Assembly: GCA_009838965.1 (NCBI GenBank)
Contig: VXQP01000012.1
Coordinates: forward strand, 1-43,112
From: Chloroflexota bacterium
GTDB lineage: Bacteria > Chloroflexota > Dehalococcoidia > Lucifugimonadales > Australimonadaceae
Direction of reading: 5' to 3'
DNA length: 43,112 nucleotides
Numbering within the stretch: the stretch's first letter is position 1; every line of letters begins with the position of its first letter. The notes below the pieces were generated by a model. That model saw nothing but the letters and a program-made list of their open reading frames with translations. It was not told the DNA's origin and did no database searches. The translations under genes and the position numbers were made by a program. Of the stretch, positions 17,743 through 24,404 are shown in pieces.

Positions 17743-18122
17743 AGGTCCCCCCGTTCCTGCTCCGCAGGCTGTACGTGAAGGGCAGCCTCACCGCGACGGC
17801 TGACGGCTTCACGTTCCAGTTGCAGAACAAGCTGGGTTCTGGCTACGCGAAGCGCATGCTGCCGCTGACACTGGACGGCGAGTCGCTGGACCTCGCGGCG
17901 TCCACGTTTGAGATCGACGGCGAGGAGACCTCCTTCGACGCGGTGTCCGAGAGCGTGCCGTTCACACTCGCGATGAACAAGACGACGACCATCTCCTACC
18001 GCGGCGGGGCAGTCGCGCCGGGGCCGCACAAGGTAGGTCTGGGGTTCGAGGTCGCGGGGCTCGGGGAGCTGGGCTTCGACTTCTCCGACGAGGCTGCCGC
18101 GACGGAGCGCGGTGCGGGGTGA
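17739..18122 (+). CDS. conserved hypothetical protein, 127 residues
   Basis: I do not recognise a characterised function. The protein is soluble-looking, beta-rich, and begins MKVPPFLLRRLYVKGSLTA. It has recurrent hydrophobic/polar strands (FTFQLQNKLGSGYAKRMLPL, PFTLAMNKTTTISY, HKVGLGFEVAGLGELGFDF). It overlaps the aldolase gene by 4 bases (ATGA) and the epimerase gene by 4 bases (GTGA), so all three are translationally coupled. The conserved-looking GSGYA and APGPHKVGLGFEV segments suggest a small ligand- or partner-binding domain; that is inference only. Confidence 0.7.
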   Translation: MKVPPFLLRRLYVKGSLTATADGFTFQLQNKLGSGYAKRMLPLTLDGESLDLAASTFEIDGEETSFDAVSESVPFTLAMNKTTTISYRGGAVAPGPHKVGLGFEVAGLGELGFDFSDEAAATERGAG

Positions 18123-19057
18123 GCGCGCCGCGCGCCGTGGCTGTCACCGGCGCGTCAGGCTACATCGGCACGCGCCTCGTGCGGCGCCTGCTCGAAACGC
18201 GGGACATCGAGCGTGTCACAGGCGTGGACGTACTTCCTTCGACGATAGAGCACGAGCGCTACGCCCACGTCCAACAGGACATGACCGGGCCGCTCGACGA
18301 AGCGTTCGCGGGTGCGGAGGCGGTCGTGCACCTGGCGTTCGTGCTGCGGCAGCTCCGCAAGCGCGCGGAGGGCAGGCGGATCAACGTCGGCGGCGCCGGG
18401 AATGTGCTGCGCGCCTGCGCGAACGCGGGCGTGGGGCGCATCGTTCTCATGTCGAGCGCGACCGTCTACGGTCCGCGCCGTGACAACCCGCCCGCGCTGA
18501 CCGAGGACGCGCCGCTGCGCCCGCCGAAGGGTTTCGCCTACGCCGAGGACAAGGCAGCGTGCGAGGCGCTCTTCCGAACGTTCGCCAGCGAGCACCCGGA
18601 GTCGTGCGTCTCCATCCTGCGCGGCTGCGTCGTGATGGGACCGAACGCAGCCAACTTCATCACCGCCGCGCTGGACAAGCCCCTGCTCATCGGCGTCCGG
18701 GGCAACGACCCGCAGATGCAGTTCGTCCACGAGGACGACCTCGCGGAGTTACTCCTGCGGTTCACAACGCAGTGGCATCCGGGCGTGTACAACGTCGCGG
18801 GGGCCGGCAGCGTGCGCTGGGGAGAGGCCGTGTCGCTTGCGGGGAAGCGGCTCATCCGGCTCCCGGGCCCGCTCGCCTCCGCACTGGCGGAGCTGGCGTG
18901 GCGCACCCATCTGCAGAGCGACTCTCCATCGGCAGGGCTGGGCTTCATCCGGTGGCCGTGGACGGTGAATACGGGAAAGCTGGGGAGGGAGACAGGCTAC
19001 GTGTACCGGCATACCTCGCGGGAGGCTTTGGAGGCGTACCTCAATCGGGGCGCGTGA
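18119..19057 (+). CDS. NAD-dependent epimerase/dehydratase (extended SDR)
   Basis: This 312-residue protein has the Rossmann motif VTGASGYIGTRL (residues 9-20). Its SSATVYGP serine segment and YAEDKAACE (Tyr-x3-Lys, near residue 140) are the catalytic pair of extended short-chain dehydrogenases acting on nucleotide sugars or similar. FVHEDDLAELL and VYNVAG are also typical. It starts with a GTG that overlaps the preceding stop. As the last gene of the aldolase operon it may act on the same carbohydrate. The substrate cannot be read from sequence. Confidence 0.85.
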   Translation: MSAPRAVAVTGASGYIGTRLVRRLLETRDIERVTGVDVLPSTIEHERYAHVQQDMTGPLDEAFAGAEAVVHLAFVLRQLRKRAEGRRINVGGAGNVLRACANAGVGRIVLMSSATVYGPRRDNPPALTEDAPLRPPKGFAYAEDKAACEALFRTFASEHPESCVSILRGCVVMGPNAANFITAALDKPLLIGVRGNDPQMQFVHEDDLAELLLRFTTQWHPGVYNVAGAGSVRWGEAVSLAGKRLIRLPGPLASALAELAWRTHLQSDSPSAGLGFIRWPWTVNTGKLGRETGYVYRHTSREALEAYLNRGA

Positions 19058-19068
19058 GCGTGGCGTCC

Positions 19069-19097
19069 TTGACAGGAAGGGGTCGCGGCCATAGCCT
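19069..19097 (+). promoter_or_regulatory. promoter of the suf operon
   Basis: TTGACA (19069-19074) is a perfect -35 and is separated by 17 bases from TAGCCT (19092-19097), a weaker -10. The predicted start of transcription is near 19104, inside the inverted repeat below, about 40 bases before sufB. Confidence 0.55.
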
Positions 19098-19126
19098 ATT
19101 GTTGACCCCAGAGGTCAACAATAGGC
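19094..19126. promoter_or_regulatory. perfect 14-bp inverted repeat, putative suf operator
   Basis: The arms GCCTATTGTTGACC (19094-19107) and GGTCAACAATAGGC (19113-19126) are exactly complementary across a 5-base centre (CCAGA). The repeat covers the -10 region and the predicted transcription start of sufB, the classical position for a repressor site. There is no T-run after it, so a terminator is unlikely. The regulator (SufR-, Rrf2/IscR- or ArsR/MarR-type) is not in the window. Confidence 0.7.
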
Positions 19127-19142: not shown

Positions 19143-20594
19143 ATGACCAACCGCACCGTCCAAGAACTCGCCGAGCAGTCCTATAAGTACGGGTGGACCA
19201 CCGAGGTCGAGGAGGAGTCCGCACCGCCCGGCCTCAGCGAGGAGATCGTGCGGTGGATTTCGGAGCGCAAGGGTGAGCCGGAGTGGCTGCTGGAGTGGCG
19301 GCTGAAGGCGTTCCGGCACTTCATGCGTTTGCTCGGCGACGCGCAACTCCCCACCTGGGCGAACGTGTCTCACCCACCCATCGACTTCCAGAGGATACGC
19401 TACTACGCCGCGCCCAAGCCGAAGCTGGAACTCGAAAGCCTCGACCAGGTCGACGCCGAGATACTGAAAACTTACGAGAAGCTGGGCATCCCGCTCGAAG
19501 AGCAGAAGCGGCTCGCGGGCGTGGCGGTCGACGCCATCTTCGACAGCGTGAGCGTCATGACCACCGCGAAAGAGACGCTGGCGAAGTACGGCGTCATCTT
19601 CTCGTCCGTGTCGGAGGCGGTGAAGGAGCATCCGGAGCTCGTGAAGAAGTACCTCGGCTCCGTCGTGCCGCACTCGGACAACTTCTACGCGACGCTGAAC
19701 TCGGCCGTATTCTCGGACGGCTCGTTCGTCTACATCCCACCGGGCGTCCGCTGCCCGCTGGAACTCTCCACGTACTTCCGCATCAACGCGGAGGGGTCGG
19801 GGCAGTTCGAGCGCACGCTGATCATCGCGGACAAGGGCTCGTACGTGAGCTACCTGGAGGGCTGCTCCGCGCCGATGCGGGACGAGAACCAGCTGCACGC
19901 CGCGGTCGTGGAGCTCGTCGCGCTGGACGACGCCGAGATCAAGTATTCGACCATCCAGAACTGGTACCCCGGCGACGACAACGGCAAGGGCGGCATCTAC
20001 AACTTCGTCACGAAGCGCGGGAAGTGCGCGGGCGACCGCTCGCGCATCTCCTGGACGCAGGTGGAGACCGGCTCCGCCATCACGTGGAAGTACCCGAGCG
20101 TGCTGCTGCAGGGCGACCACTCCACCGGCGAGTTCTACTCGGTGGCGCTCGCCAAGGGACGCCAGCAGGCGGACACCGGCACGAAGATGACCCACATCGG
20201 GAAGAACACGTCCAGCCGCATCATCTCCAAGGGCATCTCCGCAGGCCACGGCAACAACACGTACCGGGGCCTCGTGAAGGTGATGCCGAAGGCGGAGGGC
20301 GCGGTCAACTTCACGCAGTGCGACTCGCTGCTCATCGGCGACCAGTGCGGCGCGCACACGGTGCCCTACATCGAGGTGCAGAACCGCTCCGCGAGCGTGG
20401 AGCACGAGGCGTCCACGACGAAGGTGAGCGAGGACCAGCTCTTCTACTGCCAGCAGCGCGGGCTCGCGCGCGAGGACGCGCAGTCCGTCATCGTGAACGG
20501 CTTCGTTCGGGACGTGGTGAAGCGGCTGCCGCTGGAGTTCGCAGTCGAGGCGGACCGGCTGCTCGAAGTCAACCTGGAGGGGACGGTCGGCTGA
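19143..20594 (+). CDS. sufB: Fe-S cluster assembly scaffold SufB
   Basis: This 483-residue protein is the scaffold subunit of SufBC2D, on which Fe-S clusters are built. Typical segments are [48 protein letters not shown], the parallel beta-helix core and [19 protein letters not shown]. The last contains the conserved Cys (near residue 436) equivalent to the E. coli SufB active-site Cys. The length matches the family. The ATG is preceded by GCAGAGGAA. First gene of sufBCDSU; its stop overlaps the sufC start by one base. Confidence 0.96.
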
Positions 20595-21346
20595 TGCTCG
20601 AAGTACGCGGCCTGCACGCCGAGGTGAACGGCGTCGAGATACTGAAGGGCGTCGACCTGAGCGTCGGCGTCGACGAGACGCACGCCATCATGGGCCCGAA
20701 CGGCTCCGGCAAGAGCACGCTCGCCTACGTGCTCGCGGGGCGTCCGGGCTACGAGGTGACCGCCGGCAGCGTGACGTTCGACGGCGAAGACCTGCTCGCG
20801 CTTCCGGCGGAAGAGCGCGCCCGCAGGGGGCTGTTCCTCTCGTTCCAGCACCCCGTGGAGATACCCGGCGTGCGGATGGACCATTTCCTGCGCGCGGGCT
20901 ACAACGAGTTGCGCAAGAGCGCAGGCGAGGAGCAGTTGGACCCGCTGAAGTTCGACCGGCTCATCCGCAGCAAGGCGAAGGCCGTCGAGATGGAACCGAC
21001 GATGACCAAACGCGCCGTCAACGAGGGCTTCTCCGGCGGCGAGAAGAAGCGGAACGAGGTGCTGCAGATGGCGGTGCTGGAGCCGCGCCTGCGCATCCTG
21101 GACGAGATCGACTCAGGCCTGGACGTGGACGCGCTCCGCGAGGTCGCGCGGGGCATCACGGACCTCAGCGTCCCCGGCACGTCTACCATCCTCGTCACCC
21201 ACTACGACCGCATCCTCTCCTACCTCGAACCGGACCACGTCCACGTGCTCATCGACGGCCGCATCGCGCGCTCCGGCGGCAGAGCGCTCGCGAAGGAGAT
21301 CGAGGAGCGCGGCTACGACTGGCTCGAGGCCGGAGCAGGCGTCTGA
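20594..21346 (+). CDS. sufC: Fe-S cluster assembly ATPase SufC
   Basis: This 250-residue ABC-type ATPase drives conformational change in SufBC2D. The Walker A MGPNGSGKST is at residues 33-42, the Q-loop is in LSFQHPVEIPGV, the signature is GFSGGEKKRNEVLQM and Walker B is LRILDEIDSGLD. All are diagnostic for SufC rather than a transporter ATPase. The ATG at 20594 uses the last base of the sufB stop. The gene ends 7 bases before sufD. Confidence 0.96.
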   Translation: MLEVRGLHAEVNGVEILKGVDLSVGVDETHAIMGPNGSGKSTLAYVLAGRPGYEVTAGSVTFDGEDLLALPAEERARRGLFLSFQHPVEIPGVRMDHFLRAGYNELRKSAGEEQLDPLKFDRLIRSKAKAVEMEPTMTKRAVNEGFSGGEKKRNEVLQMAVLEPRLRILDEIDSGLDVDALREVARGITDLSVPGTSTILVTHYDRILSYLEPDHVHVLIDGRIARSGGRALAKEIEERGYDWLEAGAGV

Positions 21347-21353
21347 CGCTCCG

Positions 21354-22718
21354 ATGACCCAGCACGCGACTGTCACCGGATCCTGGTCCGAGCAGTTCCG
21401 CCGCTTCGAGCACAACGGCGCGGAGATCAGCCCGGCGTGGCTGCGCGACGTCCGCAGGAGCGCGTTCGGCGACTTCGAACGCCTCGGTTTCCCGACCGCC
21501 CGCAGGGGCAACGAGCCGTGGAAGTACACGAACATCCGCCCGATAGCCGACACGAGCTTCACACTCGCGGAGCACGCGCCGGACGCAAGCGCAGGTATCG
21601 ACTACCACGCGTACGAGCTCCCCTGCCCGCGCGTCCATCAACTCGTGTTCGTGGACGGCCACTACGAGCCGGGGCTTTCCACAGAGCCGGTCACCGAGGC
21701 CGGCCTGCACAGCGACGTGCTGGGACGCCACGGCGACGGCCCCGTCGTGGGACGGCTCGCCGACGCCATTGAGTACCGCGTGCCGCTCGTGCGCGAGCAC
21801 CTGGGACGGCTCGCTCCAGCGCCGGAGAACGCGTTCACCGCGCTCAACACGGCGTTCCTGCATGACGGCGCGTTCGTCCAGATACCGGACGGCACGTTCG
21901 TGCCGGAGCCGATCTACCTGCTCTTTATCTCCACCGGCGCGCAGGCCGTGGTCACGCACCCCCGCGTGCTCATCGCCGCGGGCGCGGACAGCAGCGCAAC
22001 CGTCCTCCAGAGCTTCCACAGCCTGGACGGCGGCACGTACCTCACGAATGCGCTCACGGAGGTCGTCACCGCCCCCGGCGCAAACCTCCGTCTCTGCACG
22101 CTCCAGTGCGAGAGCAGCGACGCCTTCCACATCGCCACGACGCGCATGGACCAGGCGCGCGACAGCCGCGTCGCATCCGTCGCGGTCGACCTCGGTGGGC
22201 GGCTCGTGCGCCGCGAGGTCGCGACGCTGCTCGGTGCTTCAGGCGCGAGCGTCAACCTCTGCGGGCTGTACTACGGCGCGGGCGAGCGTCACGTGGACAA
22301 CCAGACGTTCGTCGACCACGCCGCGCCCGGTGCGTCGTCCAACGAGGTCTACAAGGGCATCCTCGACGACGCGTCACACGGCGTGTTCGCCGGGGGAGTG
22401 CTCGTCAGGCCGGACTCGCAGCAGACCGTGGCGCACCAGGTGAACAAGAACCTGCTGCTCTCCTCCGACGCAGAGGTGGACACGCAGCCGAAGCTGGAGA
22501 TATACGCTGACGACGTCACCTGTACGCACGGCGCGGCGGTGGGGCAACTCGACGCGGACGCTCTCTTCTACCTGAAGAGCCGGGGCATCGGCGAGGACGT
22601 GGCGCGCAACCTGCTCGTGCACGGCTTCGTGAGCGAGGTGCTGAACGCGATAGAGGACGGGGCGGTGCGGCAGCACGTCGAGCAGGCCGTCGCTGAGTGC
22701 CTGAGCGGGAGCCGGTGA
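21354..22718 (+). CDS. sufD: Fe-S cluster assembly protein SufD
   Basis: This 454-residue SufB paralogue is the third component of SufBC2D. It has the RRGNEPWKYTNIRPI N-terminal motif, the beta-helix core with SSNEVYKGILDDASHGVFAG, and the conserved CTHGAAVGQLDADALFYLKSRG. The last contains the His (near residue 392) equivalent to the E. coli SufD cluster-site residue. The stop overlaps the sufS start (TGATG). Confidence 0.94.
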   Translation: MTQHATVTGSWSEQFRRFEHNGAEISPAWLRDVRRSAFGDFERLGFPTARRGNEPWKYTNIRPIADTSFTLAEHAPDASAGIDYHAYELPCPRVHQLVFVDGHYEPGLSTEPVTEAGLHSDVLGRHGDGPVVGRLADAIEYRVPLVREHLGRLAPAPENAFTALNTAFLHDGAFVQIPDGTFVPEPIYLLFISTGAQAVVTHPRVLIAAGADSSATVLQSFHSLDGGTYLTNALTEVVTAPGANLRLCTLQCESSDAFHIATTRMDQARDSRVASVAVDLGGRLVRREVATLLGASGASVNLCGLYYGAGERHVDNQTFVDHAAPGASSNEVYKGILDDASHGVFAGGVLVRPDSQQTVAHQVNKNLLLSSDAEVDTQPKLEIYADDVTCTHGAAVGQLDADALFYLKSRGIGEDVARNLLVHGFVSEVLNAIEDGAVRQHVEQAVAECLSGSR

Positions 22719-23968
22719 TGTACGACATCGCGCAGGTCCGGAAGGACTTTCCCATCCTCAACCGCATGGTCAACAACGTGCCGCTGGTCTACCTGGACAA
22801 CGCGGCCACGTCGCAGAAGCCCGCTTCCGTCATCGCGGCGCTCGTCGATTACTACGAGCAGTACAACGCGAACGTCCACCGCGGCGCGCACACGCTCGCG
22901 ATGGAAGCGACCATGGCCTACGAGGAGGCGCGCGAGAAGGTCGCCGCGTTCATCAACGCGCCGTCGCCGGAGAACATCGTCTTCGTGCGGAACACGACCG
23001 AGGCGATCAACCTCGTGGCGCACACCTGGGCCGCGGAGCGCGTCGGCGCTGGCGACCGCATCGTCACGACGGAGATGGAGCACCACTCCAACCTCGTGCC
23101 GTGGCAACACGTCGCGCGCACGAACGACGCGGAGCTGCGCCTGATGGCCGTCGGCCCCGATTACACGCTCGACCTGTCCGACCTCGACGAACTGCTGAGC
23201 CCCAGCACGAGGCTGGTTGCGCTCACGCACATGTCCAACGTGCTCGGCACCATCACTCCGGTGAAGGAGATAACGGAGGCGGCGCACCGGGTCGGCGCGC
23301 GCGTGCTCGTCGACGCGGCGCAGAGCGTCCCGCATATGCCCGTGGACGTGCAGGAGATGGGCTGCGACTTCATGGCGTTCTCCGGCCACAAGATGGCCGG
23401 CCCCACCGGCATCGGCGGGTTGTATATCTCGCCTGACGTCATCGACGAGGTCGAGCCGTTCCTGCGCGGCGGCGAGATGGTGCTGGAGGTGACGTACGAG
23501 AGCGCGACGTGGAACCGCCCGCCGATGAAGTTCGAGGCCGGCACGCCGAACATCGCGGACGCCATCGCCCTCGGCGCGGCGGTCGACTACCTGAGCGGCC
23601 TCGGCATGGAGCAGGTCCGGGAGCACGAGATAGCGCTCACCGGCTACGCGCTCGAACGCTTCCACGAACTGGAGGACGTGGAGACGTACGGCCCGACCGA
23701 CCTATCGGTGCGCGGGGGTGTCGTCTCGTTCTACATGAGCGGCATCCACCCGCACGACATCAGCCAGGTGCTGGACAGCTTCGGCGTCGCGATACGCGCA
23801 GGGCACCACTGCGCGATGCCGCTCGTCCGCAGCAAGCTGCACGTTCCAGCGACCGCGCGGGCGAGCTTCTACCTCTACAATACGGAGCAGGAGGTGGACG
23901 TGCTCATCTCCGCGCTCAGGCAGACGATGGAGTACTTCGGCGATGCAGATGCCCGACAGGCTCGATGA
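22718..23968 (+). CDS. sufS: cysteine desulfurase SufS
   Basis: This 416-residue PLP enzyme releases sulfur from L-cysteine as a persulfide for cluster assembly. YLDNAATSQKP is the N-terminal class V aminotransferase motif and HRGAHTLA is a family landmark. FSGHKMAGPTGIGG holds the PLP Lys (near residue 225) and RAGHHCAMPL the persulfide Cys (near residue 364). The ATG at 22718 coincides with the sufD stop and gives the family-typical N-terminus; a start at 22697 would lengthen it without support. It overlaps sufU by 26 bases. Confidence 0.95.
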   Translation: MYDIAQVRKDFPILNRMVNNVPLVYLDNAATSQKPASVIAALVDYYEQYNANVHRGAHTLAMEATMAYEEAREKVAAFINAPSPENIVFVRNTTEAINLVAHTWAAERVGAGDRIVTTEMEHHSNLVPWQHVARTNDAELRLMAVGPDYTLDLSDLDELLSPSTRLVALTHMSNVLGTITPVKEITEAAHRVGARVLVDAAQSVPHMPVDVQEMGCDFMAFSGHKMAGPTGIGGLYISPDVIDEVEPFLRGGEMVLEVTYESATWNRPPMKFEAGTPNIADAIALGAAVDYLSGLGMEQVREHEIALTGYALERFHELEDVETYGPTDLSVRGGVVSFYMSGIHPHDISQVLDSFGVAIRAGHHCAMPLVRSKLHVPATARASFYLYNTEQEVDVLISALRQTMEYFGDADARQAR

Positions 23969-24404
23969 CCTCTACAAGGACATCATCCTTGACCACTACC
24001 GCCGCCCGCGGAACGAGGGCCTGATCCCCGACCCGGACCTGCAGTCGACGGGGTTCAACCCGTTCTGTGGCGACCAGGTGGTGCTGACCATCAGCCTCGA
24101 CGGCGACGGGCGCATCAGCAAGACCGGGTTCGAGGGAGAGGGCTGCTCGATCAGCCAGGCGTCGGCCTCGATGCTCACGACGCACCTCTGCGGTCAGACG
24201 ATCGAGGAAGCGGAGGCGCTCGTGCAGACGTTCAAGGGCGTCATGCAGGGCGACGAACTCACCGAAGAGGAAGAGGACGCGCTCGGCGACATCGTGGCGC
24301 TGCAGGGCGTGCGCGAGTTCCCCATCCGCATCAAGTGCGCGCTGCTCGGCTGGACGACGCTCCAGGATGCCATCGCGGACTACCGCAAGGCGCAGGACGC
24401 ATAG
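23943..24404 (+). CDS. sufU: SufU-type sulfur transfer protein
   Basis: This 153-residue IscU-like protein receives sulfur from SufS in Gram-positive-type SUF systems. The three conserved cysteines are present (C42 in NPFCGD, C68 in GEGCSIS, C132 in IRIKCALLGW), along with Asp44. The segment between C68 and C132 includes the extra stretch that separates SufU from IscU. It starts inside the 3-prime end of sufS. ATG 23949 is an alternative start two codons later. It closes the sufBCDSU operon. Confidence 0.92.
   Translation: MQMPDRLDDLYKDIILDHYRRPRNEGLIPDPDLQSTGFNPFCGDQVVLTISLDGDGRISKTGFEGEGCSISQASASMLTTHLCGQTIEEAEALVQTFKGVMQGDELTEEEEDALGDIVALQGVREFPIRIKCALLGWTTLQDAIADYRKAQDA

Follow-up and report, generated by a model that had tools for sequence, protein, structure and literature searches.

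The suf operon and its promoter

The window analysed here, a stretch of 43,112 nucleotides (43 kb), carries the genes sufB-C-D-S-U in one run on the plus strand, each identified by its Pfam match: sufB (19143-20594; SUFBD_core, E 2.9e-79), sufC (20594-21346; ABC_tran, E 1.4e-19), whose ATG overlaps the sufB stop codon, sufD (21354-22718; SUFBD_core, E 5.8e-80), sufS, which encodes a cysteine desulfurase (22697-23968; Aminotran_5, E 4.1e-148), and sufU (23943-24404; NifU_N, E 1.5e-26). An NAD-dependent epimerase-like gene on the same strand (18119-19057; Epimerase, E 1.1e-29) lies upstream, outside the operator described below. The genome, a SAR202-like bin of the Dehalococcoidia (Chloroflexota), comprises 3.01 Mb in 106 contigs at 96.6% completeness; the SufB of the window shares 97% identity with its counterpart from a SAR202 cluster bacterium bin.

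A predicted palindromic operator of 33 bp occupies positions 19094-19126 and ends 16 bp upstream of the sufB ATG at 19143. It is a perfect inverted repeat, GCCTATTGTTGACC-CCAGA-GGTCAACAATAGGC, with arms of 14 nt each (19094-19107 and 19113-19126) and a centre of 5 nt, and its conserved part, at 19097-19123, reads TATTGTTGACC-N5-GGTCAACAATA. No other perfect repeat with arms of at least 12 nt and a gap of 3-10 nt was present in the window, and Markov-resampled windows contained a mean of 0.2 such repeats; we regard the conservation of the sequence in related genomes as the strongest argument against its having arisen by chance. A plausible suf promoter, TTGACA-N17-TAGCCT, is formed on the plus strand by a predicted -35 hexamer (19069-19074), invariant in three congeneric genomes, and an inferred, conserved -10 hexamer (19092-19097; TAG[C/G]CT in the congeners). 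It was missing from the list of the automatic, consensus-based promoter scan because TAGCCT is a weak match to TATAAT, agreeing at only 3 of 6 positions. With the -10 hexamer at this position after a 17-bp spacer, the palindrome therefore overlaps both the -10 hexamer and the expected start site. Thus, the perfect 14-bp arms with a 5-base centre that the first-pass annotation had placed over the -10 element and start of suf are real, and the promoter itself is a prediction.

Conservation and genomic distribution of the operator

In the three congeneric genomes, the -35 hexamer, spacer, -10 hexamer and palindrome are conserved as one block, and the stretch from the palindrome to sufB is strongly divergent in length and sequence. 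Order-wide, most of the 36 related genomes have a site of the form TATTGTYGACY-N5-RGTCRACAATA before sufB, at distances of 4-132 bp. Each genome was scored with a position matrix from which it had been left out (together with its whole genus in the case of the window's genus), and 29 of the 36 regions upstream of sufB had p <= 0.002 against shuffles, a count that includes an AT-rich, non-palindromic (4/11) and probably fortuitous 'site' in G032 and leaves out a true one in G025 (L186:7041, score 12.5). When up to three mismatches were allowed, the strict operator pattern matched in 18 of 39 genomes, and its reversed control had zero matches in the same 39. Coevolution between the arms within sites was slightly above permutation (8.17 versus 7.84 of 11, with 120 of 5000 permutations as high) and is weak evidence. 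Together, these sequence comparisons support the palindrome as a conserved operator-like element of the suf promoter for a symmetric (dimeric) protein that binds DNA. The first-pass annotation had proposed such phylogenetic footprinting and had named a lack of conservation before orthologous suf operons as the outcome that would speak against its reading; conservation was found instead.

Two features of individual relatives were also observed. G004 and G005 (L005:1401-1500 and L173:5616-5725) carry a repeat-like insert between the operator and sufB, CCGCTCAGCATGACA ... ATTCCCGC-N4-GCGGGAAT, which is missing from the window. In G023 (L184:5605-5631), a different near-perfect palindrome of the same geometry, TATTTATGAGT-N5-ACTCATAAATT, lies upstream of sufB, and the rrf2 gene is located within suf, so that a joint change of operator and regulator is possible there.

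Relaxing the pattern to WWGTYGACY-N5-RGTCRACWW, with one mismatch at most, yielded 38 matches in the 39 genomes, versus 6 for the reversed control. By comparison of their positions with those of the genes for sufB, Rrf2 and DUF59/SufT-like proteins, 12 of these matches were assigned before suf, 7 before rrf2 and 10 before DUF59/SufT, and the 9 elsewhere are close to the control number (6). Pattern searches, rather than a matrix scan, found exactly two relaxed-pattern sites in the genome of the window: the suf palindrome and a second, imperfect site, TTGTCGACTGGTTAAGTGGACTT, 64 bp upstream of the start codon of its rrf2 gene. DUF59/SufT and Mrp/NBP35 proteins are Fe-S maturation families; in G027 and G019, a gene that we take from reading its sequence to encode a DUF59 protein is followed by one that we likewise take to encode an Mrp/NBP35-type ATPase. 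No operator site before the DUF59 gene was found in the genus of the window. The sites upstream of DUF59 in G006, G007, G010, G012, G015 and G034 are a variant of the operator in which AAAGT/ACTTT-like flanks replace ATTGT/ACAAT, and the site at the window genome's own rrf2 promoter combines both half-site types. Outside this order but within the class, the motif stands directly upstream of Rrf2 genes (L236, L238, L239 and L241); a class-wide search at two mismatches returned mostly noise, with real Rrf2-promoter matches among it.

The Rrf2 protein and known Fe-S regulators

The genome encodes exactly one Rrf2-family protein, of 147 amino acids (G000:C1, start codon at 115106). Its gene is not adjacent to suf but adjoins a ThiF/MoeB-type gene, a neighbourhood common to almost every Rrf2 locus that the order has outside suf; an E1-like gene of this type was seen beside rrf2 at L002:1486-2848 and at most other non-suf Rrf2 loci, which hints that the regulator may be tied to sulfur-carrier activation. 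Nine relatives of other families (G016, G017, G019, G020, G021, G023, G025, G030 and G036) have their Rrf2 gene inside the suf cluster, where it adjoins sufU. Gene and site also tend to be absent together: neither was found in G009, G031 and G037, and G001 has an eroded suf site and, beside ThiF, a decayed Rrf2 remnant (L209:1124-1348) that is without the DNA-binding half and has Cys93 replaced. The exceptions are G035, in which an Rrf2 protein is present and the sufB gene (47% identical) has no upstream site, G023, with an Rrf2 protein and the palindrome of different sequence, and G038, an 81% complete bin with the site and only a weak Rrf2 match. This co-occurrence gives modest evidence (Fisher p = 0.02), as the test ignores kinship, few genomes lack Rrf2 and some bins are incomplete. 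Judged from sequence, the regulator of the palindrome is most likely the genome's only Rrf2-family (IscR/RisR/NsrR-like) protein. A scan for the palindrome and candidate regulators, also proposed in the first-pass annotation, thus yielded two sites, a single Rrf2 gene and no SufR-family match.

The protein passes the general family models (PF02082, 119.5 bits against a cut-off of 30; TIGR00738, 118.5 against 73.3). It falls below the cut-offs of the curated models for IscR (TIGR02010, 78.2 versus 207.55 bits; PRK10857, 78.1 versus 275) and NsrR (PRK11014, 43.4 versus 182), and it passes none of those for CymR, RirA and the Xanthomonas-type suf regulator. Its predicted structure has the winged-helix Rrf2 fold (pLDDT 90.6) and resembles the structures of CymR (Z 17.1, rmsd 1.8, 128 aligned), IscR of Thermincola potens (Z 16.1), NsrR (Z 16.1) and RsrR about equally. 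Asp8, Arg12, Cys93, Cys100 and Cys106 are present in 33 of 33 order-level Rrf2 proteins. The [4Fe-4S] ligands of Streptomyces coelicolor NsrR are three cysteines plus an Asp8 that comes from the partner subunit and forms a bridge to Arg12, and IscR uses His107 as a cluster ligand (PMC5411485). No equivalent of this histidine was found among the 33 proteins, where the residue three past the third cysteine is R in 30 and K or M in three. The aspartate, arginine and three cysteines apparently resemble the NsrR ligand set, and because they are invariant as in NsrR and the IscR histidine ligand is absent, a [4Fe-4S] cluster is the better guess.

The operator has counterparts in known systems as well. 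The type-1 sites of Escherichia coli IscR read ATASYYGACTRWWWYAGTCRRSTAT (PMC3899308), and the RisR sites of Myxococcus xanthus have a GAC-N7-GTC core (PMC9973013); the window site has TTGAC-N7-GTCAA, and all three share the core YYGAC-N7-GTCRR. The complete type-1 core, YYGACT-N5-AGTCRR, occurs in G003, G004 and G010, and the window site carries C and G at its two outer T and A positions. Of the 25 type-1 consensus positions, 15-22 agree in most related sites and 17 in the window site, a score that is equalled at five other positions of the window and is not distinctive, so that the type-1 likeness is carried, as far as sequence can tell, by the core and the related sites rather than by this score. 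The remark in the first-pass annotation that the palindrome does not look like an IscR site was nevertheless wrong, since the core matches IscR type 1 and sites in relatives do so at up to 22 of 25 positions.

Each of these regulators is like the window's system in some respects and unlike it in others. M. xanthus RisR (PMC9973013) is also an Rrf2 protein with three cysteines that represses suf (and isc), and the GAC-N7-GTC core, AT-rich flanks and overlap with -10/-35 elements of its operators are found again at the window's suf promoter; however, its cysteines are C92-C102-C108 rather than C93-C100-C106, its operator flanks differ, and it controls two machineries, isc and suf. E. coli IscR shares the family, the YYGACT-N5-AGTCRR core, autoregulation and Fe-S biogenesis targets, but here its His107 is replaced by R109, its Arg8 by Asp8 and its C-x5-C-x5-C spacing by C-x6-C-x5-C, and the curated IscR models are not passed. 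S. coelicolor NsrR has the same fold, Asp8, Arg12 and the three cysteines of a [4Fe-4S] site, whereas the spacing between the first two cysteines is off by one residue, the model score is far below the cut-off and the targets here are Fe-S assembly rather than NO detoxification. The best sequence match among solved structures is T. potens IscR (PDB 4cic, E 2.1e-23), but the solved chain has no cysteines aligned to C93, C100 and C106, and the cluster sites are not comparable.

A model for suf control and its alternatives

We consider it highly probable that the sufBCDSU operator is bound by a homodimeric Rrf2 winged-helix autorepressor that releases suf on loss of its cluster; what the following model infers is binding, repression rather than activation, the presence and type of a cluster, and the signal. 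A homodimer of the G000:C1 product, encoded away from suf, would bind the palindrome at the sufBCDSU promoter. When Fe-S clusters are plentiful, one would be held on the regulator by Cys93, Cys100 and Cys106, perhaps with Asp8 of the partner subunit, and the cluster-loaded protein, lying across the -10 hexamer and start site, would block RNA polymerase. In times of cluster shortage or damage, through iron limitation, oxidants or NO, the apo form would depart and suf would be derepressed. The rrf2 gene itself would be repressed through the second, imperfect site, such that cluster loss would free suf and rrf2 together. The dimeric repressor of Fe-S assembly suggested in the first-pass annotation is thus borne out as far as the conserved, symmetric operator-like site on the suf promoter is concerned, and its repressing action is suggested by the position of that site. 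The suggestion of a new suf regulator or a diverged SufR found no support: SufR is disfavoured, with no family match in the genome, and the site is linked to a single gene of the known Rrf2 family, which has such a site in its own promoter and, in relatives, is syntenic with suf.

Three other explanations were weighed. A SufR-type (DeoR/ArsR-like) or MarR/ArsR repressor could act on the palindrome, as SufR serves the suf operons of Cyanobacteria and Actinobacteria, and in Cyanobacteria represses suf through a palindrome; six order-level relatives also have weakly matching, full-length SufR-like proteins, all under the curated cut-off. The window site does contain GTTG and CAAC, but as GTTG-N11-CAAC, whereas the cyanobacterial site is a perfect palindrome with CAAC-N6-GTTG, a difference in order that the first-pass annotation had noted correctly. 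SufR also belongs to another protein family, the window's genome has no TIGR02702 match at E 0.001, and the site recurs upstream of rrf2 and follows the presence of this one Rrf2 gene. SufR is therefore disfavoured both by the operator sequence and by the absence of its gene from this genome in the TIGR02702 search, and a repressor of these types is very improbable.

An inverted repeat at this position might instead act as RNA, as a 5' leader hairpin, attenuator or terminator: the segment 19098-19122 folds as a 10-bp hairpin, within a 53-nt stretch of -18.1 kcal/mol (z -4.1). However, no T run follows the repeat on the plus strand, the expected start site lies inside the palindrome, and the motif also precedes rrf2 and DUF59 genes. 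Where the arms disagree in relatives, the pair is C-A in 20 cases and G-U in 16, and it is broken otherwise in 46; because C-A is no rarer than G-U, RNA pairing is not what is conserved. We rejected the hairpin on these mismatches and regard it as extremely unlikely. There is a slight chance that the Rrf2 protein binds the site but activates suf, in the manner of apo-IscR, or responds mainly to NO, in the manner of NsrR. Apo-IscR activates suf in E. coli, but through another type of site, whereas the site here overlaps the -10 hexamer and start, a repressing position, and resembles the repressed type-1 sites. Asp8 and Arg12 are shared with NsrR, an NO sensor, yet the NsrR model gives 43 bits against a cut-off of 182.

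Regulation of suf by Rrf2 proteins is already known, and the autorepressor proposed here is probably from that known family, neither a new kind of regulator nor SufR. No earlier suf regulator for Chloroflexota was described in the open literature searched, with subscription journals and regulon databases outside the search. What is new, to judge from that search, is the assignment in SAR202-type Chloroflexota of a well-supported member of a known family, with the apparent NsrR-like ligands on an IscR-type-1-like operator and, in relatives, a SufT/Mrp target. It is possible, and we propose it tentatively, that the SAR202-type Rrf2 repressors of the whole order pair an IscR-type-1-like operator with a [4Fe-4S] sensor of the NsrR type, ligated by Asp8, and run Fe-S assembly (suf, themselves and, in relatives, SufT/Mrp). 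If true, a labile cluster sensitive to NO and iron would govern Fe-S homeostasis in these bacteria, in place of the [2Fe-2S] cluster of IscR. For an uncultured lineage, a candidate regulator, its operator, its probable autoregulation, a third target (SufT/Mrp, in relatives) and the residues to mutate can now be named. Rrf2 proteins are viewed as having been recruited to Fe-S biogenesis several times (PMC9973013), and the SAR202-type case fits such repeated recruitment while the GAC-N7-GTC core recurs.
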